From IMG/VR virus record IMGVR_UViG_3300036766_002119, positions 1 to 25,097 of that record: a DNA stretch of 25,097 bases. One strand, 5' to 3'. Position 1 is the stretch's first letter, and every line of letters begins with the position of its first letter. A model generated the notes under the pieces. The model was not told the DNA's origin and ran no database searches. It saw only the letters and a list, made by a program, of their open reading frames with translations. The DNA is from a virus. A program made the position numbers and the translations under genes. Shown here piece after piece: positions 2,259-23,587 of the stretch.

Positions 2259-3812
2259 GTGAGGTTGCGTTTGTCTTCTGATTTTGTTGTTGATAGTGAT
2301 GTTGAGCCTTGGCGTCGTGAAGGCTTACGTATTGCAATGCTTGGCGGTCCTGGCAGCGGTAAAAGCTGGAATAATAGTTTGTTGGCTGAGCAGTTCTTGC
2401 AGCAGGGCGGCACTGTCGTTATCTTTCAGCCTCGAGACGAATACTTCACTTTGAAAGAGAAGTTTGATGTTCTCAGTGTTGGCGGTGTGCACGCGAAGGA
2501 TATGGAGTTTGCTTTGACTAGTCCAAGTCTGTATGCTAAGGCTGTGGTTGAAGATGGCCTAAGCATGATCTTCTACACGTCAGCAGTTGACGATGAACAG
2601 AAGCTAATCGACTGGGTTTCTCGTTTCATCAGTTTAATTCTGAAATACCAGGAGCAACACAAAAGACCGTTGTTGCTTATTCTCGAGGAGGCTCAGGAGT
2701 ATGCGCCCAGATCAGCCAGTGGCCACGTGGCGCCGCCTTGGATTTACAATCGCATGATCAAAGCCTTCAAAGACTGTTTTACTCAGGGCAGGAAGCTTAA
2801 CATTATTGCTGTGGCAAGCAGCCAGCGTCCACAAGAATTAAACTTCACTATAAGGCAGCTTGCGAACCTCACATTTTATGGTAAGTTCAGCGATCAAGAC
2901 ATTGGCTACATTGATAAAGAATGCTTAAAGTATGTGCGCCAGCATGGAATCAGCATTGATGCTTCAAAACTTGTGGAGCTCAGCCTAGGCGAATGGCTTG
3001 TTATTATGGGTAAGAAAAGCCGCTTTGTCAAGGTAACGGAAAAGCGCATTACGAAGCATGGTGCAGAAACTCCCAAGCTGGAATATGTTGCACCCCGTCC
3101 TACAGAAGTCAAGAAAACTATTGATGAGCTGAGCAAGTCGATTTTGGCTGCTTTGGAGAAGGAAGAAGCGGAAAAGTCGGAGCTGGAGAAGATAAATAGG
3201 AAGCTTCATGAGACCGAAGAGAAACTGAAGGCAGCAGAAAAGAAAGCGGACATTAAGGTTTCAGTTAGGGAAATGCTTGAGGGCAAGCAAGATGTAGGGG
3301 CGGCCGCCCCTATTGACAATGGGGTTGATGTTGAAGAGCTTAAACAAGAGGTTCTAAAGCTTCGCGATCAAGTGGAAACCGGCAAAGAGACCATTGAGAA
3401 GCTTCAAAAACAGCTTGGCGCCGTGGATAAGATTCGTGAGAGCTTCAAGGACCTTGGGCTTATACCTACGCCTATGCCTACGAGTATACCTACTGAAAGC
3501 CAACAAGTTGGTTTGCAGGCTTCTACAACTATTGTCGACGTGCCTGCTGCTGAGAAGCATGTTACTATTAATACTGAGAGTATGCGTGGGAAGATTCTAG
3601 CAGTTGCTAAGAAGGGCAAGTTAAATGCCTGGCGTAAGCTGGGTGAGATTGTAAGCGCAATTCAAGAGGAAAAATGGTCGGCGGATTCCGCAGAAGTCAA
3701 CAATGCCCTAAATGATCTTGAGAAAGATGGGTTAATCGCTAAGAAGCATGCGGACCGCAACTACTTCTGCCTAGCACAAGGCGTGAGGTTTGCGAAGGAG
3801 GTGAATACATGA
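2259..3812 (+). CDS. HerA-like P-loop ATPase with coiled coil and C-terminal winged helix (517 aa)
   Basis: This belongs to the HerA/FtsK superfamily of hexameric DNA-pumping ATPases. Walker A is GGPGSGKS at residues 29-36. Walker B is LLLILEEAQ at 138-146, with the catalytic Glu. The segment TQGRKLNIIAVASSQRPQEL that follows is the classic HerA sensor region with its conserved SQRP. From about residue 286 to 400 the protein is a charged coiled coil. Residues about 442-517 look like a winged helix (KLGEIVSAIQEE, then VNNALNDLEKDGLIAKK and NYFCL). A GTG start abuts the previous stop. Cellular HerA works with the nuclease NurA, but no NurA, Sir2 or other effector is adjacent. A large terminase is also present, so this ATPase is unlikely to package DNA. 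Genome segregation, replication or host modulation are possible. Confidence 0.88.
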   Translation: MRLRLSSDFVVDSDVEPWRREGLRIAMLGGPGSGKSWNNSLLAEQFLQQGGTVVIFQPRDEYFTLKEKFDVLSVGGVHAKDMEFALTSPSLYAKAVVEDGLSMIFYTSAVDDEQKLIDWVSRFISLILKYQEQHKRPLLLILEEAQEYAPRSASGHVAPPWIYNRMIKAFKDCFTQGRKLNIIAVASSQRPQELNFTIRQLANLTFYGKFSDQDIGYIDKECLKYVRQHGISIDASKLVELSLGEWLVIMGKKSRFVKVTEKRITKHGAETPKLEYVAPRPTEVKKTIDELSKSILAALEKEEAEKSELEKINRKLHETEEKLKAAEKKADIKVSVREMLEGKQDVGAAAPIDNGVDVEELKQEVLKLRDQVETGKETIEKLQKQLGAVDKIRESFKDLGLIPTPMPTSIPTESQQVGLQASTTIVDVPAAEKHVTINTESMRGKILAVAKKGKLNAWRKLGEIVSAIQEEKWSADSAEVNNALNDLEKDGLIAKKHADRNYFCLAQGVRFAKEVNT

Positions 3813-6135: not shown

Positions 6136-6609
6136 ATGGAAAACACTATGGAATCTATTGCGACTGGGCGTAAAAAGCGTTCGCAGGAGGCTAAAGTGGG
6201 CAGGATAAAGTACACTTTGCAGCAGATTAAGGAGATGCGTCGCGATATTGCCGAGGTTAAGCTTATGCAGCGCACGATTTTTCGTGGTCTTAAAGATTAT
6301 TTTCATTTTGAGAAGCCGTTTATTGAAAAGATTTCTTGTGTTGATCAGCTTGACATTGACATTCTTCAATTGCTCTATGAAGTTGGTTCTGGGGGGATTC
6401 TTCCGAAGGATGTTGCTTCAAAACTTGCGGAGTACAGGATTACTCGGCATCATGTTAGTCGTCGCCTCCTTCGCATGAATAAGCGGTTAGAAAAGGAGCT
6501 GGGGCAGCGTGTGGCTGAGAAGCGTGGTCATCATTGGGCGCTGACAAGTTTTGCGGTTGAGGTTTGGCAAGAAACAGAAAAGGAAATGGAAGAGGAGGTG
6601 AAAAATTGA
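6136..6609 (+). CDS. Helix-turn-helix protein with N-terminal helix (157 aa)
   Basis: Residues about 20-60 form a basic amphipathic helix (YTLQQIKEMRRDIAEVKLMQ). Residues about 75-145 fit a winged helix: QLDIDILQLLYEVGSGG, then KDVASKLAEYRITRHHVSRR as helix 2 and recognition helix, then a wing (RVAEKRGHHWALT). It probably binds DNA as a dimer. It overlaps the ParB-like gene by four bases, and the pair may act together at one site, as regulator plus partition-like protein. ATG 6148 is an alternative start; neither has a strong ribosome-binding site. Confidence 0.7.
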   Translation: MENTMESIATGRKKRSQEAKVGRIKYTLQQIKEMRRDIAEVKLMQRTIFRGLKDYFHFEKPFIEKISCVDQLDIDILQLLYEVGSGGILPKDVASKLAEYRITRHHVSRRLLRMNKRLEKELGQRVAEKRGHHWALTSFAVEVWQETEKEMEEEVKN

Positions 6610-7547
6610 AAGAATTAGGAAATATGAATCTAACTGAAAAACAAATTATTTATCCATCGCCAAGAAACCCAAGACTTAAGGGCTTAACAGTTAAAGAGGC
6701 AGGCATCAGAGTGTTGGCTGAAAGCATAAGAACCGTTGGGCAACTTCAACCTATTATCGTACGAAAATATGACGGTAAGTTTGAAACAGTTGATGGCGAC
6801 AGAAGATGTATCGCAATTTTCAGGGTTCTGAAGCTCGGAACGATAAAGGCACTAGTGTATGAGATGGATGACTTGGAAGCGGGTAGGTTGCGTATCATCG
6901 CAAACATCCAAAAAGAAGACTTGTCAACTGCGGAGAAGGGAAAGTATTGCAGGGATCTTTTCGATCTTACCACCATTCAGGCAAATCTGAACCCGAAAGA
7001 AGCGTGGCAGAGTCGACTGGCTCGCTCGAAATATTTGGCTCAGATAGCAAGTGAAATTGGCGTAACTGTTGACTCAATACTTAATTGGATTAGGCTCTGG
7101 GAGGAGTATTCGCCTGAGGCGCAGGCAATGATCGCAAAAAATAAGGAAGACTTACGAGACGGCCTTGTACCAGCAACGCTTGCGATTCGAGTCGCGTCTA
7201 TTGCCAGGAGACTGGACGCAGACCCAAACGCCACACTTAAACTGTTTACACAAAATCGCTGGAGTGCACACGAAGCGGAGATAATTAATCACAGAATAAA
7301 AGAGGAGAAAAGACTCACTCTTGATAAATTGCCCGAGATCGTGCGAGAGTTCAGGCAAAACTACATTTACAGGGCGGTTGACTTCGAGGCTGAATCCTAT
7401 CGACTCTTCCTCAAGCAAGCTGAAGAAGATAAGATTCGCTTTGATGATTATCTGAGCTTTGCAGTTAAATTCGCCTTGACACATAAACTCGAGTTTCGCC
7501 AATTCGTCACTAATAGTATAGCACAGAAGCAACTGATGAGACAGTGA
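6606..7547 (+). CDS. ParB/Srx-domain protein (313 aa)
   Basis: I choose TTG 6606 because AGGAGGTGA lies at 6593-6601; the open frame upstream to 6564 lies within the previous gene. The ParB N-terminal signature is clear: LAESIRTVGQLQPIIVR at 37-53, VDGDRRCIAIFRVL at 62-75 (the GERRxRA-type nucleotide-binding box), and ANIQKEDLSTAEKG at 99-112. A helix-turn-helix follows at 143-164 (YLAQIASEIGVTVDSILNW). The C-terminal third is helical with no known domain. ParB proteins are CTP-dependent DNA clamps that bind centromere-like sites. No ParA ATPase is adjacent, so a regulator or adaptor role is also possible. It ends two bases from a convergent gene. Confidence 0.85.
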   Translation: MKELGNMNLTEKQIIYPSPRNPRLKGLTVKEAGIRVLAESIRTVGQLQPIIVRKYDGKFETVDGDRRCIAIFRVLKLGTIKALVYEMDDLEAGRLRIIANIQKEDLSTAEKGKYCRDLFDLTTIQANLNPKEAWQSRLARSKYLAQIASEIGVTVDSILNWIRLWEEYSPEAQAMIAKNKEDLRDGLVPATLAIRVASIARRLDADPNATLKLFTQNRWSAHEAEIINHRIKEEKRLTLDKLPEIVREFRQNYIYRAVDFEAESYRLFLKQAEEDKIRFDDYLSFAVKFALTHKLEFRQFVTNSIAQKQLMRQ

Positions 7548-8182: not shown

Positions 8183-8583
8183 AAAAAGGTAGGTATAGGG
8201 GTAGGTGCTCAGTTACGGTTAATTTGAAGTCAACTGAGAGGGTAGGCCTATACCTAGGAAAAATTCGACGCATTGCGCGTGTGGATAGTCAAGGGATACG
8301 TGCTAAACTGCTGAATCAGCTTGACCAGCTCTTTAATTTGGCTTTTTCGATTGCGAAGGGTCAGGTTAAGCGTCTTCGAGATGATGAAGGGAAGGAGTAT
8401 AGTGTTACTCCAGGGCAGCGGCAGAAGTGGGCACGGTTGGCAACGTACACGGCGCAGGTTATGCAGAATCTGAGTAAAGGGTTTGATGAAAAGGAATTTC
8501 AAACGGACCTGAAAAAGCTGGAGAGGATGGTTAATGAGATCAGACGCAAAAAAGCTGCAGAAAACAATAGAACAGTTGTATGA
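8179..8583 (+). CDS. Candidate terminase small subunit (134 aa)
   Basis: The gene sits immediately before the large terminase and overlaps it by 50 bases. The protein is basic and mostly helical (RAKLLNQLDQLFNLAFSIAK, then PGQRQKWARLATYTAQVMQN and DLKKLERMVNEIRRKK). Small terminases are oligomeric helical DNA-binding proteins that recognise the packaging start. Size, charge and position fit, but no diagnostic motif is visible. The GTG start overlaps the previous stop. Confidence 0.5.
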   Translation: MKKGRYRGRCSVTVNLKSTERVGLYLGKIRRIARVDSQGIRAKLLNQLDQLFNLAFSIAKGQVKRLRDDEGKEYSVTPGQRQKWARLATYTAQVMQNLSKGFDEKEFQTDLKKLERMVNEIRRKKAAENNRTVV

Positions 8584-9943
8584 AGAAGCCGAAGAAAAGA
8601 ACACTAAAAGTTCACTACCAATCCCTACAGACCCTGTGGAATTTGCTCGAGTACTTTTCAAGTTCAAACCCACTGAGTATCAAGCCAAACTGTTAAGCGA
8701 TAAGAGCAAGCGGATCGTGATTCGCTGGAGCCGGCAAGCTGGCAAGACAACATGCATAGCCCTTAGGGCAATATGGTTTGCAATGGTTCACCCGAAAACG
8801 CTTACGCTGATCGTGGCACCAGGGCTCCGCCAAAGCATGATAGTATCCGACCGGATTGAAAATTTCCTTTCCTGTTTGCCGAAAGAGGATTCGGAACGCG
8901 GGTTTGACCAGAAACATCTTATTCAAAAGTTGCAGAGAACTTCAATCCGTTTTAAGAATGGTAGCCGTATCATCGCACTACCGAACAGTCCCCAGCTACT
9001 TCGTGGCTATACGGCTGATCAAGTTATAGCGGATGAAGCCAATTTCTTCAAGGATGACCAACTCATCTTTTATAGCGTGCTGTATCCGATGCTGTCGACC
9101 ACGGATGGCACGCTGATTGCATCGTCGACACCTTGGAACAAGGATAGCGTGTTTTTCAAGATGTGGGAAAGCAAAGAGTTTAGCAAGCACATCGCGACAT
9201 ACGAAGATAGTGTGAAAGGGGGACTGCAAAAGCAGAGTTTTTTTGAGGAGCAACGTGAGGTACTTCCGTTTGAACGTTTTCAGCGGGAGTACATGGCGGA
9301 GTTTGTTGAAGATATTGATGCTTGGCTTACACAGAGCTTGATCGTCAGCTGTATTGACAGTCAACTGCAGCTTTATGATTTTCAGGATATGCCGAAGGGC
9401 GAGTTTTACGTTGGTGTCGACTTCGGAAAAGAGCGGGATTTTAGTGTTGTGCTGGTGCTTGAAAAGTCTGGTTCGACATTACGTGTAGTGCATGTTCACC
9501 GATTTCCCCTAAAAACAGAGTATGCAAGCGTAATCGGCTACATCAAGAGCCTTCAGGACCGTTGGCCATCAGTTCGAGCCGTGTACTCTGACATAACGGG
9601 TGTAGGCGGCTACATCGTTGAGGATATGATAAGAAGCGGGATCCAAGGCGTCACTGGCGTAACATTTACGGTGCAGTCGAAAGAGGAAATGGCCACGATT
9701 TTGAGGGAGAAGATGCGTGGCGCTGAAGTACGGATTCCGTATATTCCTGCTAACAGACTTGAAGACGTAGACTTGACTGCAGAATTGAATATCGAAAAAT
9801 ACAAGTTAATGAAGACAGGCCATATCCAATTTAGTCATCCTGAGGGCGGGCATGATGATGTGTTTTGGAGCGCTGCCCTGGCGGTTTATGCGAGTGTTCA
9901 GGCGCCGTTACCTGGTAAGGGCGCTGTTATGCTTCCACATTAA
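8534..9943 (+). CDS. terL: Terminase large subunit (469 aa)
   Basis: This is the DNA-packaging motor ATPase and nuclease. The ATPase Walker A is SRQAGKTT at residues 66-73. Walker B is VIADEAN at 164-170, with D167/E168. The coupling motif is ASSTP at 196-200. The RNase-H-like nuclease domain follows, with acidic residues in VGVDFG (D296), YSDITG (D353) and HDDVFWSAALA (D441/D442). Length and motif order are normal. The ATG start has GGAGAGG upstream and overlaps the candidate small terminase. It would dock on the portal to translocate DNA and cut concatemers. Confidence 0.95.
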   Translation: MRSDAKKLQKTIEQLYEEAEEKNTKSSLPIPTDPVEFARVLFKFKPTEYQAKLLSDKSKRIVIRWSRQAGKTTCIALRAIWFAMVHPKTLTLIVAPGLRQSMIVSDRIENFLSCLPKEDSERGFDQKHLIQKLQRTSIRFKNGSRIIALPNSPQLLRGYTADQVIADEANFFKDDQLIFYSVLYPMLSTTDGTLIASSTPWNKDSVFFKMWESKEFSKHIATYEDSVKGGLQKQSFFEEQREVLPFERFQREYMAEFVEDIDAWLTQSLIVSCIDSQLQLYDFQDMPKGEFYVGVDFGKERDFSVVLVLEKSGSTLRVVHVHRFPLKTEYASVIGYIKSLQDRWPSVRAVYSDITGVGGYIVEDMIRSGIQGVTGVTFTVQSKEEMATILREKMRGAEVRIPYIPANRLEDVDLTAELNIEKYKLMKTGHIQFSHPEGGHDDVFWSAALAVYASVQAPLPGKGAVMLPH

Positions 9944-10432: not shown

Positions 10433-11629
10433 ATGTGGGGAGCCGTACCGATAGAGGACCTTCCCAAGTACAAGGATCTTTTTACGTTTACTCCATATAT
10501 CTCCGCATGTATCAATGTTACGATTAATCTTGCGATTAGCAACGGTTTTGAGTTGGAAGGCGGAGATGAAGCTGTTAACGAGTGGTTGATTGATTGGCTT
10601 GATGAGCATAACATTTTGCAGACTCTGCGCATAATTGGAACGGATATGCTTGTTTTTGGGAATGGAGAGTTTGAGATCTGCCGAGAAGAGGGTATGCCGC
10701 CTGAAGAATGGTGGCTTAAGCCGCTGGATCCTGTGCATGTGCGGGTCCGCAGAGATGCTTATGGCAATGTGTTCGGTTACATTCAATTGTTGACTTTTCC
10801 CCCTGTAGTATTCACAGCTCAGGACATAGTTCATTTTCGGTGGGGCGCCAAAAGTTGGTGGTACGAATTTTCATATGGCACGAGTTTGCTGAGACCGTTG
10901 CTGAAGATTCAGGCGTTGATTGATCAGCTTGAAGATGACATGGCCATCATTGTTCACACTTATACTAAGCCCATGCTCGTAGTCAAAGCGGGAAGGCCTG
11001 AAATGCCCTTCAGCGATCCGCAGCTTCAAGCGCTTATGGAAGCTTTCCGTGATCGTCAGCCTGCGACTGACGTGTTCGTCCGTGGTGATGTTGCTGTTGA
11101 TGTTGTGCCCAGCCTTACGAAGGATGTGAATGTTCAGTTTTGGCTTGATTATCTTTACAAGCAACGCGAAGCAGTTTTAGGCGTTCCAAAAATCTTTCTC
11201 GGACAAAGTGAAGGGACTAACCGGGCTACGGCTGAGATTGTGATGCAAGAGTATGTCACGCGCTTGCGAATGCTGCAGGAGCTCATCGGCGACACGCTTG
11301 AAACAATGCTGTTTAAGCAGCTCGTGGAAGCTAAGTTTGGAGAGGGCGTTGAAGTTCCAACTATTAAGTGGCGTCCGATCTGGGAGCCTACACTTGATGC
11401 TAAAGCTAAATTCATCGGTGATCTCGTGGAGAAAAACATTATTTTACGGAGCGAAGCTCGGCCACAGTTAGGCTATCCAGAGCAGCCTACTGATGAAGCG
11501 TTAGCAGCTGAAAAGATGCTCCCCGCACCGCAGCCGAAGGGACAAGTTGACAATGCAATCCAAAAAACTGTGAAGCATGTGCTTGAGAAGTCGCAAGTAC
11601 CAGGAGAACAAGAGGAGCCCACGCAATGA
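10433..11629 (+). CDS. Portal protein (398 aa visible)
   Basis: The dodecameric portal sits at the capsid vertex, receives the terminase and is the channel for DNA. Characteristic segments are TPYISACINVTINLAISNGF near the N-terminus, LRIIGTDMLVFGNGEFEICR, PLDPVHVRVRRDAYGNVFGY, and AQDIVHFRW. The stem/wing region QREAVLGVPKIFLGQSEGTN RATAEI is typical of HK97/SPP1-like portals. The C-terminus is Pro/Gln/Glu-rich. The ATG at 10433 has no well-spaced ribosome-binding site, and the family normally has more residues before the TPYI region, so the true N-terminus probably lies in the disrupted segment upstream. Confidence 0.92.
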   Translation: MWGAVPIEDLPKYKDLFTFTPYISACINVTINLAISNGFELEGGDEAVNEWLIDWLDEHNILQTLRIIGTDMLVFGNGEFEICREEGMPPEEWWLKPLDPVHVRVRRDAYGNVFGYIQLLTFPPVVFTAQDIVHFRWGAKSWWYEFSYGTSLLRPLLKIQALIDQLEDDMAIIVHTYTKPMLVVKAGRPEMPFSDPQLQALMEAFRDRQPATDVFVRGDVAVDVVPSLTKDVNVQFWLDYLYKQREAVLGVPKIFLGQSEGTNRATAEIVMQEYVTRLRMLQELIGDTLETMLFKQLVEAKFGEGVEVPTIKWRPIWEPTLDAKAKFIGDLVEKNIILRSEARPQLGYPEQPTDEALAAEKMLPAPQPKGQVDNAIQKTVKHVLEKSQVPGEQEEPTQ

Positions 11630-14227: not shown

Positions 14228-15121
14228 ATGGCTATGGTTCGTGATGCTTTTACATGGGTCGACACAGGCGCTATAGCGTATCCGGCGTTGCATAAGCACA
14301 TCATCGAGTTAACGATGCCGGCTCTGGTCGTGAAACGGTTATTGCCAGAGTTTCCGCTTGTTGCAGGTCGAACAGCCACATTTCCGAAAGAACAAGGTTC
14401 AAGAAGCATTGGCATCAGTGAAATCAGCGAAGGAGCGGAAATTCCGATGGACTTTACGCCTTTAACAACTGTTACTGTGACGCCTTACAAGAAAGGGCTG
14501 CGAGAAAGGATTTCGCGTGAGGCAATCGAGGACTTGTATATTCCAGTGATTGAACAGCAGCTCCGGCGTCTCGCGAGACGTATGGCCTATCAGATCGACA
14601 AGGACTGCATGACAGTCATTGATCTCGGAGCTGGTAGTAGCAGTGCTGGCACGGGCAAAAGTCTTGGAGCCACAGGCACAGAGTTCACCATAACTGGCGG
14701 CATTGGTACGAAGGATCTGCTTTGGGCTGAAGCGAAAATTGCCAGCTACAACTTCATTGCTGATTCTTTGCTTTGTAACCCTGTCAACGCGCGTGATCTG
14801 AAATATTTACCACAATTTTCTCTATACGCTCAGTACGGGGAACCCGTGATTCAATCTGGAGCTATAGGGACGGTCTACGGATTGCAATTCTTTGTTAGCA
14901 ACGTTGTGCCTGCAGGTACCGCTTACGTGCTTAGCACGGGACAAAATCTAAGCGCATCCTATGCTCCTTTAGGCTTTTTCGTCATAAAGCGACCTCTGCT
15001 TACTGATATTGACATTAAAAAAGAGTTTGATGCAGTCGATATAGTGCTTACGACAAGGTTCTCGCCGGTTATTACATGCGGAGAGGCAATCAGCAAGATT
15101 ACGGGTTTGGCGACAACTTAG
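14228..15121 (+). CDS. Major capsid protein, HK97 fold (297 aa)
   Basis: The start has GGTGA seven bases upstream. The sequence fits an HK97-type capsid without a long N-terminal delta domain: FPLVAGRTATFPKEQGSRSI, GAEIPMDFTPLTTVTVTPYK, the spine-helix region ERISREAIEDLYIPVIEQQL, AYQIDKDCM, then LLWAEAKIASYNFIADSLLC and VYGLQFFVSNVVPAGTAYVL. The absence of a delta domain agrees with a separate scaffold fused to the protease. A long intergenic stretch with T-rich sequence follows, suggesting transcript ending or processing after this highly expressed gene. Confidence 0.9.
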   Translation: MAMVRDAFTWVDTGAIAYPALHKHIIELTMPALVVKRLLPEFPLVAGRTATFPKEQGSRSIGISEISEGAEIPMDFTPLTTVTVTPYKKGLRERISREAIEDLYIPVIEQQLRRLARRMAYQIDKDCMTVIDLGAGSSSAGTGKSLGATGTEFTITGGIGTKDLLWAEAKIASYNFIADSLLCNPVNARDLKYLPQFSLYAQYGEPVIQSGAIGTVYGLQFFVSNVVPAGTAYVLSTGQNLSASYAPLGFFVIKRPLLTDIDIKKEFDAVDIVLTTRFSPVITCGEAISKITGLATT

Positions 15122-15806: not shown

Positions 15807-16271
15807 TTGACGGTACAATACGCTACGGTAAGTGATATTCAGGCTCAGCTAAACGCTACGTTTGACTCTGCAGCCTTAACCTACACGGTTTTCGGCTTAC
15901 CCGTTTCTCAAGCCGCTTTCCAAGCCCATGTGGATTATGCAAATTTGTATGTTAACTCGATTGTGGGCCAGGATCTTCTCGCGACGGACTCGCGTTACAA
16001 TTGGGCTAAGATGACTGCTTTCAATCTGGCTTCACTTCGTATTCTTGTGGCTGCAAGCGGAGGCATGCTCCTCGGGGCTTTCGATTACCGCCTCGGAGAC
16101 CTTTATATTACAAAAGCTTCTATTGGAAGACTTGCGTTTGAAGGAGCAGTTCAAGGCTTCCGCAACGACTTGCTCAGAGTCTTAGTGAATTTTGCTATGC
16201 CCGTGAAGGCTGCTGAGGCAACGGCTGCCGGAGAAGTCCCAAAATACAAAGGCGGGTTGATTAATCCATGA
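15807..16271 (+). CDS. Head-tail adaptor / connector protein (154 aa)
   Basis: The TTG start has a GGTAGATGA ribosome-binding site upstream. The protein is helical (TVSDIQAQLNATFD, AAFQAHVDYANLYVNSIVGQ, NWAKMTAFNLASLRILVAAS), which fits the small helical adaptor family (HK97 gp6/SPP1 gp15-like) that docks on the portal. It follows the capsid gene and precedes the head-closure gene, the standard place for an adaptor. It ends with a flexible tail. Confidence 0.7.
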   Translation: MTVQYATVSDIQAQLNATFDSAALTYTVFGLPVSQAAFQAHVDYANLYVNSIVGQDLLATDSRYNWAKMTAFNLASLRILVAASGGMLLGAFDYRLGDLYITKASIGRLAFEGAVQGFRNDLLRVLVNFAMPVKAAEATAAGEVPKYKGGLINP

Positions 16272-16440: not shown

Positions 16441-16506
16441 ATGTCCTTTCTCCTTTACAGCAAACTTGTTGGTTGGGAGCTTTCTGAGAGGCGGGAATTT
16501 GTTTGA
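16441..16506 (+). CDS. Possible 21-residue peptide
   Basis: ATG 16441 follows GCGGTGAA and the frame (MSFLLYSKLVGWELSERREF, then V) ends one base into the next ATG. Ribosome-binding site and stop-start overlap are good, but the length is too short to be sure. It could be a leader that couples translation of the zinc protein. Confidence 0.3.
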   Translation: MSFLLYSKLVGWELSERREFV

Positions 16507-16625
16507 TGATTGAGAAGCTTAAGAGACTCAGCAAGCTTGTGTGCGAAAAGTGTTCTGTAGTCGATTATTCTGTTTGCGCTAATTGCGAGATTAAAAAGTT
16601 GATAGATGAGCTGATGGCAAAGTGA
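16506..16625 (+). CDS. Small zinc-binding protein (39 aa)
   Basis: The product begins MIEKLKRLSKLVCEKCSVVD and contains CEKC and CANC pairs, spaced as in a minimal zinc ribbon, then a helix (EIKKLIDELMAK). The stop overlaps the GTG of the head-closure fusion gene by four bases. It is likely a structural mini-protein or assembly factor; no family is recognised. Confidence 0.6.
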   Translation: MIEKLKRLSKLVCEKCSVVDYSVCANCEIKKLIDELMAK

Positions 16626-18241
16626 ATGTTCCACAAAGCTATTACGATTTCATAATGCATTACGCTCCATACTTTTACGTTATTCCAACGAATATGACTC
16701 AAAATGCGTCTGCTGGACAAAAAGACGTCACTGTTGCGGACGGTTCCAAGTTTCAAGCTGGATTTCCCGTCGAAATAAAGGATGATGCCCACAGCGAATG
16801 GAACACAGTGGCTTCTATTGCTGGTAACGTTCTAACCATGCAAAATAATCTGGCTTACACTTATTACGTTGCCAAAAACGGTAAGGTTGAAGGCCCAGAT
16901 CCATCCTTTGGAAGAGGAGCTTTTCCAGCAGCCTTCGCAATCGATTTTCTTTACGAAGCATATTCAGCCTCTCAGTTCTCGAGCAAACAAGCAGAGATCC
17001 TGGCTAAGATTGTGGCCCTTGCGGACTTCATTTTAACGCAGCAGTGCACGGATAATTTGAAGAAGGCTTATGGCGGATTCAAAAATGCTGAAGCTGGAAC
17101 GCAATATTGGAGCATTGATGCTGGTCGATGTATTCCGCCTCTTTTGAAGGCCTATGCACTAACAGGCACAGTCAGCTATCTCAACGCTGCTAAACTTGCT
17201 GGCTACACTTTCCTCTACAACATGCAACATGAACCTGAGATTTTAGGCGTCCATGACAAGTATTATGGTGGTTTCGCTCGATATGTCACTATAGATGATG
17301 CTTGGAGTCAGCCAATGAATGTTGAGGATCTCTACGATTTTATCGGTTTGAAAATGCTTGCTGAAACTTATGATACAGGTAACAAAACACGCTATGAAAC
17401 AATGATAAATGATGCTGCTGACTTTTTGTGTTTCGGCTTTGAAAATTTGTATTTATGGTTTGACCCTAAGCCCTCTGGCGATGGTAAATGGCACCGTGTA
17501 GGCACAAATGAGACTCAAGTTTACGATGACCCAATAAGCTTCGCATTGCTTGGGCTCTATACTTACGAGGGCTGGAGTGTAACATGCCAGAGAGTCTATA
17601 ATTTCATTGAGACAATTCGAGCTTCTGCACAGTACCCAGCTTATAACCCAGCGATTTGTTGGCCAGGCTACATTGATGTAGTAACTCGTTTTCCCGCATG
17701 CGCTTATTACGATGCTCTCACAACGGGCATTCTTGGAAAGATACGGGCTGCACACGATAAACCTGCTTACGCTCTGAGCATGCAGATCCTCAGTTCGTAC
17801 TATTCTCAATTCATGAATTGGGGTCCACAATTTACGGATTATTCACCGATAACTCCACAGAAAGCTATGGCGAATGTAACTTGGCTTGCACAGTTTTTCT
17901 TGACTTATCAGGACCCTTCAACAGAGATAACGCACATTCTAAGCGTCAACGGCGAAAGTCTGCTTCTGTACCCTATTCAGCAGGCGGCTGATCAAGTGAC
18001 GTGGGGATCGCCGCTTGATCTATTGGGCTTGGTGACTTTGGGTGCAGTGGGCGAGATTGTCTTGGAGCCTGGCTACATTACTGAGGATCATATTACTGTT
18101 TACAGCTTTTTGCCGGTGCGTGTGCATGACAAGATAAGGCGTGGAGGCGTTGACTATGAAGTTATTACAGTGTCGGTTTCTGACTTGAACGGTGATCCTC
18201 AAGTTTACAAGAGCGTCTGCAGGAAGTTGATCAGTCAATGA
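16622..18241 (+). CDS. Head-closure (stopper) protein with large six-hairpin glycosidase-like domain (539 aa)
   Basis: Three regions are visible. Residues 22-90 form a small beta module (VTVADGSKFQAGFPVEI, SIAGNVLTMQNNL) of the kind seen in tail proteins. Residues 95-432 contain about six helix pairs with aromatic loops (FAIDFLYEAYSAS, AGRCIPPLLKAYALTG, EDLYDFIGLKMLAETY, PISFALLGLYTYEGW, YYDALTTGILGKIRAA, AMANVTWLAQFFLTYQ), as in (alpha/alpha)6 glycosidases and lyases. Residues 438-539 look like a head-closure protein: VNGESLLLYPIQQ, EIVLEPGYITEDHI, VRVHDKIRRGGVDYEVITV, VYKSVCRKL. Stoppers are usually near 100 residues, so over 400 are extra. Catalytic residues cannot be assigned; the domain might be binding-only. 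It is flanked by adaptor and tail-terminator genes. Confidence 0.7.
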   Translation: MNVPQSYYDFIMHYAPYFYVIPTNMTQNASAGQKDVTVADGSKFQAGFPVEIKDDAHSEWNTVASIAGNVLTMQNNLAYTYYVAKNGKVEGPDPSFGRGAFPAAFAIDFLYEAYSASQFSSKQAEILAKIVALADFILTQQCTDNLKKAYGGFKNAEAGTQYWSIDAGRCIPPLLKAYALTGTVSYLNAAKLAGYTFLYNMQHEPEILGVHDKYYGGFARYVTIDDAWSQPMNVEDLYDFIGLKMLAETYDTGNKTRYETMINDAADFLCFGFENLYLWFDPKPSGDGKWHRVGTNETQVYDDPISFALLGLYTYEGWSVTCQRVYNFIETIRASAQYPAYNPAICWPGYIDVVTRFPACAYYDALTTGILGKIRAAHDKPAYALSMQILSSYYSQFMNWGPQFTDYSPITPQKAMANVTWLAQFFLTYQDPSTEITHILSVNGESLLLYPIQQAADQVTWGSPLDLLGLVTLGAVGEIVLEPGYITEDHITVYSFLPVRVHDKIRRGGVDYEVITVSVSDLNGDPQVYKSVCRKLISQ

Positions 18242-19224
18242 GCGCGTACGAGGACCCTGTAACAACCGTAATCAGGCTTCTTAGCAAGAAAATCCAAGTG
18301 ATTAAAAATGACAATTCAGTCGCAACTGTTTACGTAAGCAAAGAGTGGTATGACCGTGAGCTTTTCAAGAATTATGATGCGCAGATAAGCGTGGGTTTAG
18401 CTCAGAGTCAGGATGAGATGCTTGAGGTCTCTGGTAGAATACGGAGACGTATAGGGAGACTTCGTGTTAATATTTGGGCTACTGATAGACCTCAGACGTC
18501 TGACCCGGGCAGAACAATGCGGCAGAAGATCGTTGAAGAAGTTAACCGTGTTGTTAGGCAAAACATGAAGACTCCAAATCAAGCATTTTATGACTTCTCC
18601 GGCTTAGGCTACCCTTCGGGTGATCCGCATAAAGCGTTCTCAGGCGCTGGAGCGAGTGAGTTAGTGCCGAGTGATGCTGGCTGGGTTGAGCTTTCTAATT
18701 TAGACTATCAGAAAATTTGGCATCCAGATAGCATTGACTACAGCAAGAGCAAATCGGTGAACCTTCAGTATAGTATGATGCTTTTCCGTTTCAAACTCGA
18801 TATGGATGCGTCAAAAGTTCAGCAGATTGTCTTGAGTTTTCTTGGCTACGGAACTGCTCCTGGAGGCAACGGTAGCACTATTAAGGTTTGGAATCCAGGT
18901 GCTTCAGCTTGGCAAAATGCTGCAAGCGGGTCCGCCGGGGTTAATGAAACCGTAACTATAACGTTGACTTCAAACTTGTCGAATTATATCGATTCTAACG
19001 GGTATGTTTGGCTTCTCGCAAGAACAACAAACCCGAGTAACGGCACAACTGCAGCCGTTATAAACTGCGATTATGTCAGTTGCACAGTTACAGTTAATGG
19101 CATCACCTACCTAAATATTGAGAGTTATCGTGACGTTGACAGGGTTGATGTTAAGCCTTTCATCTTCAGGACGGAGTTTATCCTGAAATCATGGTCCTTT
19201 GAGGACATTGGAGGAGTATTCTAA
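18238..19224 (+). CDS. Tail terminator/completion protein with inserted jelly-roll domain (328 aa)
   Basis: Residues 1-110 (VIRLLSKKIQVI, YDAQISVGLAQS, RLRVNIWATD, GRTMRQKIVEEVNRVVRQN) and the C-terminus from about 289 (YLNIESYRDVDRVDVKPFIF RTEFILK) together look like one tail-terminator fold of usual size, about 150 residues. Between them, residues about 112-288 form a separate beta sandwich: MLFRFKLDMDASKVQQIVLS, STIKVWNPGASAWQN, SNYIDSNGYVWLLARTT, VINCDYVSCTVTV. This is the pattern of jelly-roll modules on extracellular and virion proteins. The gene overlaps its upstream neighbour (ATGA) and precedes the tail tube, as expected for a terminator at the neck. Confidence 0.65.
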   Translation: MSAYEDPVTTVIRLLSKKIQVIKNDNSVATVYVSKEWYDRELFKNYDAQISVGLAQSQDEMLEVSGRIRRRIGRLRVNIWATDRPQTSDPGRTMRQKIVEEVNRVVRQNMKTPNQAFYDFSGLGYPSGDPHKAFSGAGASELVPSDAGWVELSNLDYQKIWHPDSIDYSKSKSVNLQYSMMLFRFKLDMDASKVQQIVLSFLGYGTAPGGNGSTIKVWNPGASAWQNAASGSAGVNETVTITLTSNLSNYIDSNGYVWLLARTTNPSNGTTAAVINCDYVSCTVTVNGITYLNIESYRDVDRVDVKPFIFRTEFILKSWSFEDIGGVF

Positions 19225-19238
19225 AAAGGTGAATTTGA

Positions 19239-20123
19239 ATGAGTGTTGAAACATACGGTGCACAAGAATGCCGCGTCTATTTCGTGCAAGAATCAGTGTA
19301 TGGACAGATACCAACGAATCCTACGATGCTTGGCATAAACACTGAAGGCCCAGATCCGAAAATAAACCCCAGCCTAATCGAAGTCATGGGCGTAGGCAGT
19401 AAAGACCTTCAAGCTCTATACGTTGGCATGCGAAAAGTCAACCTGAAAATTCCTTACCTGCCAGGTCAAATAGCGCCCACCAGCTTAATTCAGCATGTGC
19501 AAACGTTGAGTAGCTTGAGCGTTCTGGTGGCTTACTACAAAGGATTGTGGACAAGTCCCTCAAACATCATTGCTTTTCTCCACACGGGCTGCAAAATCGA
19601 CAAGCTAACCGTTGAAAGCAAAGTTGATGATATTGTTAAAGCGGATGTTGAGCTGATTGGCCAAAACGTAGCCAGAAGCACAAGCCTGCCATCTGGTGCG
19701 ACTTTCGGCGATTATCCTGGGGGAATCCCGTTTTATCTCGCAAAAGTGCAGAAAGGAGCTGCTGGAGGCGGAAGCTTAACAGATCTTACTGATGTCACGG
19801 ACTGGAAGTTTGAGATTCAAAACAACCTTAAAGAGGTGCCAATCATCCAAAGTCTTCCAAGCGGTGCAACAGCGACTCTTCTAAAATACCTTCGTGAACG
19901 CAACAGAAAACTTTCTGGAGAGCTTACGTTAGAGTTTGAAAGCGACTGGGCTCTGGCAGACGTTTTAAACGATACTCAATTTAGCTTGAACTTCCAACTT
20001 GGCAGCGGGCATGCGGCTTTGTTCACGTATTGCAAGTGGGAAGAGTTCAATCCAACGACAAAAATCAAGGATCTCGTAAGCGTTAAACTCAAGTTTCTCG
20101 CACAAAATGTAGCCATAACATAG
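19239..20123 (+). CDS. Major tail tube protein (294 aa)
   Basis: The start has GGTGA upstream. Sequence features fit a gpV-like tube protein: an N-terminal CRVYFVQESVYGQIPTNP segment, GSKDLQALYVGMRKVNLKIP, a domain with IDKLTVESKVDDIVKADVEL, and a C-terminal beta segment with RKLSGELTLEFESDWALADV. Hexameric rings of this protein would stack to form the tail. It is followed directly by the assembly chaperones, which supports the assignment. No sheath or contractile component is seen, so a siphovirus tail is inferred. Confidence 0.8.
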   Translation: MSVETYGAQECRVYFVQESVYGQIPTNPTMLGINTEGPDPKINPSLIEVMGVGSKDLQALYVGMRKVNLKIPYLPGQIAPTSLIQHVQTLSSLSVLVAYYKGLWTSPSNIIAFLHTGCKIDKLTVESKVDDIVKADVELIGQNVARSTSLPSGATFGDYPGGIPFYLAKVQKGAAGGGSLTDLTDVTDWKFEIQNNLKEVPIIQSLPSGATATLLKYLRERNRKLSGELTLEFESDWALADVLNDTQFSLNFQLGSGHAALFTYCKWEEFNPTTKIKDLVSVKLKFLAQNVAIT

Positions 20124-21961: not shown

Positions 21962-23587
21962 ATGAGCGTTAACATTCCAAAATGTGCCATTGTTTTTGGT
22001 AGTGTTACTCCGCCTCAAGGCGACGTGATAGATTTGCGTGCGCATCTGGGCTGCACTAAAGAGGTTAGCAGTTTTGAGTGTTTGCTTCAGAACTGGGATA
22101 AGAAGTATAGTCCAGGCGGGACTTTACCTATTAACGTGGGTATGGATGGAAGCATAAGCATCGGAAGAGGCACGAATGTTCCGCAGATAATTACTTGTCG
22201 TGTTGAAAAGGTTCAATGCGAATCTCCTACATCGACGGAACATTATCTTCGTGTTAGCGGAAGGTGTTGGGGAGAGAAGCTTTTCCGTAGAGTAGTCACG
22301 AAAAGTTATGATAACCAGAAAGGAGAGGCCATCGTTAAGGATTTGCTTGATTACTATGTTGGCTTAAGTCATGTTAGAGGTACCACGGAATTAGTGGAAA
22401 ACACGGATACCACTTACACGCACTTGGAATATGAAAACACACCTGTCTGGGACATAATAAAATACATTGCAGAGGCATCTGATAAAAACGGTGTTATTGG
22501 CTTTGATTTTCGTGTGGCTCCTGATGGCAAGTTTGAGTTTTTCCCGAAGAACAGCAAGACAAGCCCTGTAAGCCTAACCGAGAAAGTTGAGGTTAGCGAA
22601 TACCGCAAAGACATTCTGCGAATAAGAAATAGAATCAGAATTTACGGTTGTCAAGGAAAAAATTTTCCAGCAAACTTGGATTCTTGGAGTGAATCATTGG
22701 ATGGTTGGACAGTAGTTTCAGGAACTCTCTCATTAGAATCTGGAAGACAACGGAAGGGAAGTTACAACCTTCGTGTTGATGCGGCTGCAAGCGTAGAAGG
22801 AAATATTTACCGAACGTTCGACGCTCTATGTAAGCCTCAAACTTTTGTTGTGTGGGCTTGGATGCCGGGGAATTTGGGAGGAGGCTATGGTTATATTAGA
22901 TTGAGGGCTCCTGACAGCTCAAACTATTTCCAAGCAAACATAAAATCGATTCTTGAAAGTAACTGCATTCTGCAATGGGGTTTCATCTCATTGGCTTTGG
23001 GATCCAACCAAATGTATGATGCAAATCATAACCCTAACGGAATCTGGACAAAGGTTGGAAATCCTCAATGGAGTCAAATAAGCGGTCTTCAACTTATAAT
23101 ATGCACTATTGGCGCTGCATCATACTATATGTATGATGGCGACTTCGGTTTTCTAAACTGCTCTTATACTGGAACATCTGAAGATACTGGAAGCCAAAAT
23201 GCCTATGGCTTACGTGAACTCACGGAGACTGATGAGGAGCTTGCAAGCGACAACGAATGTGAATTAAGAGCTGAAGCTTTGCTTGATTACTTAAAAAACC
23301 CAGCAGAATCTCTCACCTTAACCAGCACGGTTATAGACTATGGCACCACACCCCCCCTCGCCGCAGATAAGATTCATGTCACATTGCCAAACGAGAATGT
23401 GGATTCTGACTTCCGCATCGAAACCGTTGAGTATCGCGTAGACGCAAAAACTCAGACGCTTGAAATAACTTTGGAGCTTGGCAAACTTCCGCCACTGCTC
23501 GCCGACTACCTGTACGGCATGCGCACAATGTCCATAACCATTGAGAAGCTTACACGGACAAAAGTTGGTAGAGGTGTTTTAGCGTGA
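21962..23587 (+). CDS. Tail hub / tip protein with inserted carbohydrate-binding-like domain (541 aa)
   Basis: The flanking parts look like a gp27/Tal-type hub. Residues 20-110 are DLRAHLGCTKEVSSFECLLQ, SISIGRGTNVPQIITCRVEK, and YLRVSGRCWGEKLFRRVV. Residues about 160-230 include PVWDIIKYIAEASDKNGVIG and RIRNRIRIYGCQGK. From about 408 come YGLRELTETDEELASDNECE LRAEALLDYL and the final SDFRIETVEYRVDAKTQTLE ITLELG. Between 233 and 405 lies a beta sandwich that begins LDSWSESLDGWTVVSGTLSL, with GSYNLRVDAAASVEGNIYRT and ends YMYDGDFGFLN. That is the plan of carbohydrate-binding modules in fiber proteins. It breaks the normal G-x(n)-YGxRE hub continuity, so it is an insertion. Confidence 0.72.
   Translation: MSVNIPKCAIVFGSVTPPQGDVIDLRAHLGCTKEVSSFECLLQNWDKKYSPGGTLPINVGMDGSISIGRGTNVPQIITCRVEKVQCESPTSTEHYLRVSGRCWGEKLFRRVVTKSYDNQKGEAIVKDLLDYYVGLSHVRGTTELVENTDTTYTHLEYENTPVWDIIKYIAEASDKNGVIGFDFRVAPDGKFEFFPKNSKTSPVSLTEKVEVSEYRKDILRIRNRIRIYGCQGKNFPANLDSWSESLDGWTVVSGTLSLESGRQRKGSYNLRVDAAASVEGNIYRTFDALCKPQTFVVWAWMPGNLGGGYGYIRLRAPDSSNYFQANIKSILESNCILQWGFISLALGSNQMYDANHNPNGIWTKVGNPQWSQISGLQLIICTIGAASYYMYDGDFGFLNCSYTGTSEDTGSQNAYGLRELTETDEELASDNECELRAEALLDYLKNPAESLTLTSTVIDYGTTPPLAADKIHVTLPNENVDSDFRIETVEYRVDAKTQTLEITLELGKLPPLLADYLYGMRTMSITIEKLTRTKVGRGVLA

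Follow-up and report, generated by a model that had tools for sequence, protein, structure and literature searches.

A six-hairpin domain of the sugar-enzyme superfamily fused to the predicted head-closure protein of a Bathyarchaeia virus

Head-closure proteins (stoppers) are regarded as conserved plugs, the known ones are small, and the expected places for sugar enzymes on virions are fibres, spikes or baseplates. The window analysed here, the 25,097-base virus contig IMGVR_UViG_3300036766_002119 of IMG/VR taken at its full length, encodes a 539-residue protein that the initial annotation had read as a stopper preceded by a six-hairpin glycosidase-like domain. This raises the questions of whether both halves of the protein are what they seem, how widely the fusion is kept and what such a domain might do at the neck of an archaeal virus.

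Gene module and parts of the fused protein

The right-hand part of the window is a tailed-virus morphogenesis module, and the genes of the virus are syntenic with those of Bathyarchaeia proviruses carrying the same hairpin–stopper fusion. The module contains the following genes:

8534..9943, + strand: terminase large subunit (PF03237, 9.5e-15)
10433..11629, + strand: portal protein (phrog_9232, 5e-24; PF06074)
14228..15121, + strand: HK97-like major capsid protein (phrog_1650, 3e-16; PF25209)
15807..16271, + strand: probable head–tail adaptor, 154 aa, assigned by position and sequence character
16622..18241, + strand: fused head-closure protein P0001, 539 aa, a single open frame conserved in about 105 ORFs
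18238..19224, + strand: tail terminator (completion) protein, 328 aa, assigned by core alignment with bare terminators, AlphaFold2 model and fold match
19239..20123, + strand: tail tube (phrog_290; PF18906, 1e-15)
21962..23587, + strand: YQBQ-like tail hub or baseplate protein (PF24032, 1.2e-6; phrog_400)

A family search with the 15807..16271 ORF gave no match, and its probable adaptor identity is taken from the gene order major capsid protein, adaptor, stopper, terminator and tube. The frame of P0001 runs uninterrupted from a GTG start at 16622 to the stop at 18241, and the start of the terminator ORF overlaps its stop codon. Directly upstream of P0001, a short ORF at about 16500–16625 has two CxxC pairs (CEKC...CANC) and is possibly a small zinc protein; upstream of the terminase lie a ParB-N/HTH protein and a HerA-like (DUF87) ATPase (6564–7547 and 2259–3812). 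P0001 itself divides into four parts:

16622..16693, + strand: N-terminal helix, residues 1–24 (VPQSYYDFIMHYAPYFYVIP), from the 28-member alignment; helix at 5–14 in the model
16694..16891, + strand: optional Rider-like beta-domain, residues ~25–90 (~66 aa), from PF24149, fold matches and BLAST
16892..17929, + strand: predicted (alpha/alpha)6 six-hairpin domain, residues 91–436 (346 aa), from AlphaFold2, Foldseek against PDB and PF06662
17930..18241, + strand: predicted head-closure (stopper) domain, residues 437–539, from PHROG profiles, fold matches and the bare homologue L253:6126-6500

By sequence profile, the stopper assignment is of moderate strength: phrog_939 ('head protein') matches the C-terminal domain in 16 of 23 members (best 3.6e-9), phrog_161 and phrog_8797 ('head closure Hc1') match it weakly (E 0.04–0.3), and an hmmsearch of the domain against PDB gave no match. 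The AlphaFold2 model of P0001, computed from an alignment of 28 diverse relatives (mean pLDDT 92.3, pTM 0.91), has six helical hairpins at residues 100–443 followed by an all-beta tail, whose strands at 445–535 form a beta-rich head–tail joining fold of ~100 aa. Compared with viral predicted structures, the model gave matches of ~110 columns to 'Head-to-tail connector complex protein', 'Bacteriophage SPP1, head-tail adaptor' and 'Head-tail joining protein', and matches of ~80 columns to tailspikes; judging by match length, the former probably represent the stopper and the latter the beta-domain. By position, the gene stands between the position-assigned adaptor and the tail terminator, before the tube, both in the window and in the syntenic loci L253, L026, L061 and L261. 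In the first of these, a related provirus, the corresponding ORF between the adaptor-like and terminator ORFs is a bare stopper homologue of 125 aa that starts at the joint, window residue ~437. The profiles, fold matches and bare homologue bear out the earlier reading of the last ~100 residues as a stopper, and residues 438–539, the part for which a separate comparison had been proposed, match head-closure and head–tail joining proteins. The C-terminal ~103 aa are thus like SPP1 gp16, PHROG Hc1 and phage 812 gp97 in beta-rich structure, gene position and head–tail joining fold matches, but where gp97 has an external beta-sandwich (PMC12886913), P0001 has a 346-aa toroid of sugar-enzyme type.

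At the other end, the N-terminal helix is common to all aligned members, including those without the beta insert, and the beta-domain is missing from 12 of the 28 (e.g., L029, L030 and L036). PF24149 (K1-lyase_Rider) matches the beta-domain in 12 of 28 members, at best with 0.005 and below the Pfam cut-off, and the fold matches in its size range (~80 columns, rmsd 1.5–2) are to tailspikes and K1 capsule depolymerase. In these viruses the beta-domain also recurs, with 33–63% identity, inside large tail proteins encoded downstream (L014:5693-8989, a 1099-aa ORF found by BLAST; L015:8638-12054; L081:13071-15986; L085:14075-15958; L098:14488-16392), and it is therefore shuffled between neck and tail.

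Fold, family and conservation of the hairpin domain

The initial annotation had counted about six helix pairs, and all six are present in the AlphaFold2 model (100–114/117–140, 164–181/184–207, 234–250/252–274, 302–316/320–330, 366–378/380–392 and 416–428/435–443), arranged in a predicted closed toroid. Foldseek found 128 matches in PDB at E <= 0.001, and the best 50 of these, with E down to 9.5e-7 and TM up to 0.64 on the target, were all (alpha/alpha)6 sugar epimerases or glycosidases: glucose, cellobiose and N-acylglucosamine 2-epimerases, GH126 (CPF_2247 and the Listeria exopolysaccharide hydrolase PssZ), GH76, GH8, GH127 and others. The fold check proposed for residues 95–432 thus gave a six-hairpin toroid, with sugar enzymes as its nearest solved relatives among the matches listed, and not an unrelated virion helical domain; the domain stood but its limits moved, as it starts at about residue 91 and residues 25–90 belong to the separate beta-domain. 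By prediction and comparison for the fold of both ends, we show P0001 as a stopper whose N-terminus is extended by a six-hairpin domain of the sugar-enzyme superfamily, and as far as prediction can show, the structural reading of the protein as six-hairpin domain plus stopper is supported.

The family is less easily named. Full-length P0001 had no match in PHROG, tblastn against phages and plasmids gave none, and the sole phmmer match in PDB was a PL10 pectate lyase (E 0.12). PF06662 (C5-epim_C) matches the hairpin domain in 25 of 28 aligned members (best 6.2e-6), passing the Pfam cut-off in several proviral copies and staying below it in the window copy, and an NCBIfam pectate lyase profile matches two members weakly (0.002). 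The D-glucuronyl C5-epimerase identity suggested by Pfam was rejected: hhalign against archaeal C5-epim_C (two template sequences, L286 and L287) gave Prob 5%, and the epimerase motif SAMAQG corresponds to SIDAGR in the hairpin domain. Family profiles of GH88, GH127 and PL10 reached only one or two of 28 members, at E 0.03–0.06 in Pfam, and the GH76 profile PF03663 matched none of the 28 at E <= 1; in host genomes, GH76 and AGE profiles gave mostly weak partial matches unfit for family alignments. The comparison with GH88, GH105, GH127 and PL families that had been proposed therefore holds for the six-hairpin fold and fails at the family level for all those named. AGE epimerases, GH126/PssZ, GH76, GH8, GH127 and the C5-epimerase C-domain share the fold and the hairpin sequence pattern with P0001, but identities in the matches listed are 8–15% and the tested motifs and profiles assign P0001 to none of them. 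By fold and, in some copies, by Pfam cut-off, the hairpin domain belongs to the six-hairpin superfamily, and a new family within that superfamily is its best description, none of the CAZy families tested fitting. Toroids of the (alpha/alpha)6 type are also found in noncarbohydrate proteins, such as terpene cyclases and complement TED.

Across the diverse set, the hairpin domain is more conserved than the stopper, and its dN/dS of about 0.11 (NG86, with dS near-saturated) indicates strong purifying selection. Residues D166, R169, W290, R292, Y301-D302-D303, E316, W347, Y362-Y363-D364, D379, W400 and W421 are invariant or nearly so, and three sites stand out as candidates:

17117..17119, + strand: invariant Asp166 where helix 164–181 begins, in the motif [YW]-[SA]-[IV]-D-A-x-R169; candidate pocket residue
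17522..17530, + strand: invariant Asp302-Asp303, preceded by conserved Tyr301, where helix 302–316 begins; candidate catalytic pair
17705..17713, + strand: invariant Tyr362-Tyr363-Asp364; candidate pocket residues

Because the alignment depth is modest, the putative pocket residues were placed by conservation and predicted secondary structure rather than by coordinates, and on this basis D302-D303 and the other candidates may have a catalytic role. BcGH76 has the adjacent catalytic Asp pair D124-D125 (PMC8362039), to which the invariant pair D302-D303 of P0001 might correspond in position. With the fold and this conservation, an enzymatic or glycan-related function of the domain is plausible.

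Distribution and hosts

Among the loci fetched from IMG/VR and from genome contigs, 95 ORFs matched all three parts and 10 more matched the hairpin and stopper domains without an N-terminal match. An architecture that recurs in ~105 ORFs is not a product of chance, and its origin from many samples and genomes rules out an assembly artefact. When newly fetched IMG/VR loci were searched with the stopper only, 71 of 72 stopper ORFs were fused to the hairpin domain; the remaining one, the single stopper without it among the 72, is a fragment cut by the contig end, and bare stoppers came solely from host genomes.

The hairpin domain was found in 40 of 257 genomes of Bathyarchaeia, abundant sediment archaea, often on long chromosomal contigs, and of the 25 genome contigs that have relatives, 24 bear a Bathyarchaeota or Crenarchaeota label. 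Labels other than Bathyarchaeota are one Crenarchaeota and one Njordarchaeum, and in the phylum of the latter genome the domain occurs at full strength in 1 of 196 sampled genomes. These counts support the initial call of an archaeal tailed virus, and the assignment of Bathyarchaeia as the host group is based on the labels of the metagenome-assembled genomes.

A few copies depart from the common form. The reading frame is disrupted in L028, L102, G129:C10 and G187, which are apparently errors or proviruses in decay, and L252:5321-7408, on a 1.2-Mb contig, joins a topoisomerase VI B subunit and a stopper domain in one frame, a recombination remnant or an assembly artefact. On the Njordarchaeum-binned contig, the ORF L055:503-1822 adjoins surface-protein genes and codes for a hairpin domain that stands alone, with a membrane segment at its N-terminus but no stopper; the end of the frame coincides with the domain border, which makes a domesticated viral gene possible.

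The many proviral copies in host genomes, and this membrane-anchored relative in a cell, would fit a domain that acts in the producing cell or at release, trimming exopolysaccharide or S-layer glycans to free the progeny or blocking superinfection in lysogens. The viral form lacks a signal peptide, however, and as it is fused to a virion part, its access to the outside comes with the particle or with lysis; we regard this alternative as very improbable.

Additions to the neck and their possible role

The provirus L253 combines its bare stopper with a bare terminator of 153 aa and syntenic tube, hub and small tail genes, its hub being 73% identical to that of the window over the N-terminal 231 residues. 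With bare forms of both proteins in a syntenic provirus, the extra neck domains are add-ons rather than part of the core. The terminator of the window has such an addition of its own:

18580..19092, + strand: predicted jelly-roll (CBM-like) insert in the terminator, residues ~115–285 (~170 residues), from its absence in relatives and fold matches

The core of the terminator aligns with the bare terminators of L051, L253 and L263, where the insert is missing. Its AlphaFold2 model (score 88.9) matches the HFTV1 tail (9fkb_Pa) in fold, and the fold matches of the jelly-roll include CBM4, CBM11, CBM15, CBM16, CBM22 and a chondroitin-sulfate CBM. A WD-40 match of the terminator profile, 41 residues with no single stretch passing, was dismissed. 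In L007 and L013 the terminators have a differing insert (481-aa ORF), and in L051 the insert is missing but the stopper fusion is retained.

At the same gene position in another Bathyarchaeia virus, a 580-aa protein (L256:4551-6293, - strand) has a stopper-like C-terminus behind an unrelated N-terminal domain, apparently an independent fusion. That domain, which also gives the impression of a toroid, shares 28–39% identity with proteins encoded in ~17 Bathyarchaeia genomes. Signal peptides and C-terminal membrane helices occur in several of these proteins, as do PKD, Ig-like, CARDB or dockerin-type domains. Searching IMG/VR with the L256 protein brought up no relatives. In viruses related to L256, L279:4740-5606 and L280:5040-6941 have stopper and terminator in one ORF, L280 being further extended at its end, and in a third type of Bathyarchaeia provirus the stopper (L263:4783-5421) has an apparent FnIII-like extension, a sequence impression that Pfam does not support.

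Such additions could be structural decorations that clamp or stabilise the adaptor–stopper–terminator junction and have no role at the host surface. The presence of the extension in nearly all relatives would agree with this, as would the neck of phage 812, which is stabilised by neck decoration proteins (PMC12886913). On the other hand, one or both additions are missing from L253, where stopper and terminator are both bare, from L051, whose terminator is bare, and from L263; the hairpin domain shows conservation of an enzyme type, and the L256 domain at the same place is unrelated and yet homologous to secreted host proteins. We consider a purely structural role improbable.

A noncatalytic lectin, giving reversible adsorption to host glycans without cleavage, is likewise unlikely, though less remote. 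The CBM-like terminator insert and the Rider-like domain suggest binding, and the profiles tested for a catalytic family motif identified none in the hairpin domain. However, lectin specificity sites usually diversify, whereas purifying selection on the hairpin domain is strong, and its invariant Asp clusters with Tyr, Trp and Arg at helix starts, including the adjacent Asp pair, exceed the conservation usual in variable lectins. Binding modules at this part of a virion would have precedents, as CBMs of neck passage structures and tail tubes are already known (PMC9863714).

The best explanation, and in our judgement a probable one, is that the stopper-fused hairpin domain and the CBM-like insert of the terminator form a glycan-active collar on the neck of Bathyarchaeia viruses. 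By analogy with SPP1 and phage 812, six stoppers would form the neck ring (PMC9701221, PMC12886913), from which about six copies of the hairpin domain may project outward. In phage 812, the stopper termini touch external decorations (PMC12886913), and since stopper termini reach the neck exterior in SPP1 and phage 812, an extension of the N-terminus would be exposed there in the form of a collar. The hairpin domains together with the CBM-like insert could then bind and cleave or modify a host-surface glycan, the glycosylated S-layer or an exopolysaccharide, at adsorption or release. Action on host glycans is suggested by the sugar-enzyme fold, the invariant residues, the tailspike-type beta-domain, the CBM-like neighbour and the membrane-anchored relative, and on these grounds the hairpin domain may attack or bind the S-layer.

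Known systems resemble parts of this proposed glycan-active collar. The neck appendage gp12 of phi29 is a separate trimeric protein with a beta-helix fold, unfused to a head-completion protein and directed at a different host. It is a glycan-degrading protein at the collar, where the phi29 appendages digest teichoic acid (PMC9863714). In the lactococcal neck passage structure, neck-borne carbohydrate-binding domains aid adsorption (PMC9863714), but these are binding modules only, in a dedicated protein. The archaeal tailed virus HFTV1 also displays a predicted carbohydrate-active and CBM-type domain on its particle, in the turret head protein gp31, which instead sits on capsid hexamers and has a polysaccharide deacetylase-like fold, no such neck domain being described there (PMC12494034). 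In the literature searched, no earlier description of a head-closure protein joined to a sugar-enzyme domain came up, and the main text of a paper on Bathyarchaeia viruses makes no mention of neck or head-closure proteins or of epimerases, its passages on glycosylation concerning other proteins (PMC10848311).

The HFTV1 authors stated that carbohydrate-degrading structural proteins were previously unreported for archaeal viruses (PMC12494034), and a second case, at another site and with another fold, is therefore informative on how archaeal surface layers are crossed. The hairpin domain is self-contained, making its expression and assay possible without culturing host or virus. With at least two unrelated domains gained on the stopper and a CBM-like jelly-roll in the terminator, there is an even chance that the neck is a dedicated glycan-processing collar, whose stopper and terminator repeatedly gain sugar-active or sugar-binding domains of secreted type, and that the hairpin domain represents a new (alpha/alpha)6 family of virion enzymes acting on the archaeal surface. 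The fusion of a domain of sugar-enzyme type to the head plug has been retained in a large group of Bathyarchaeia viruses, and it points to a part for the neck itself in dealing with the sugar-coated surface of the host.
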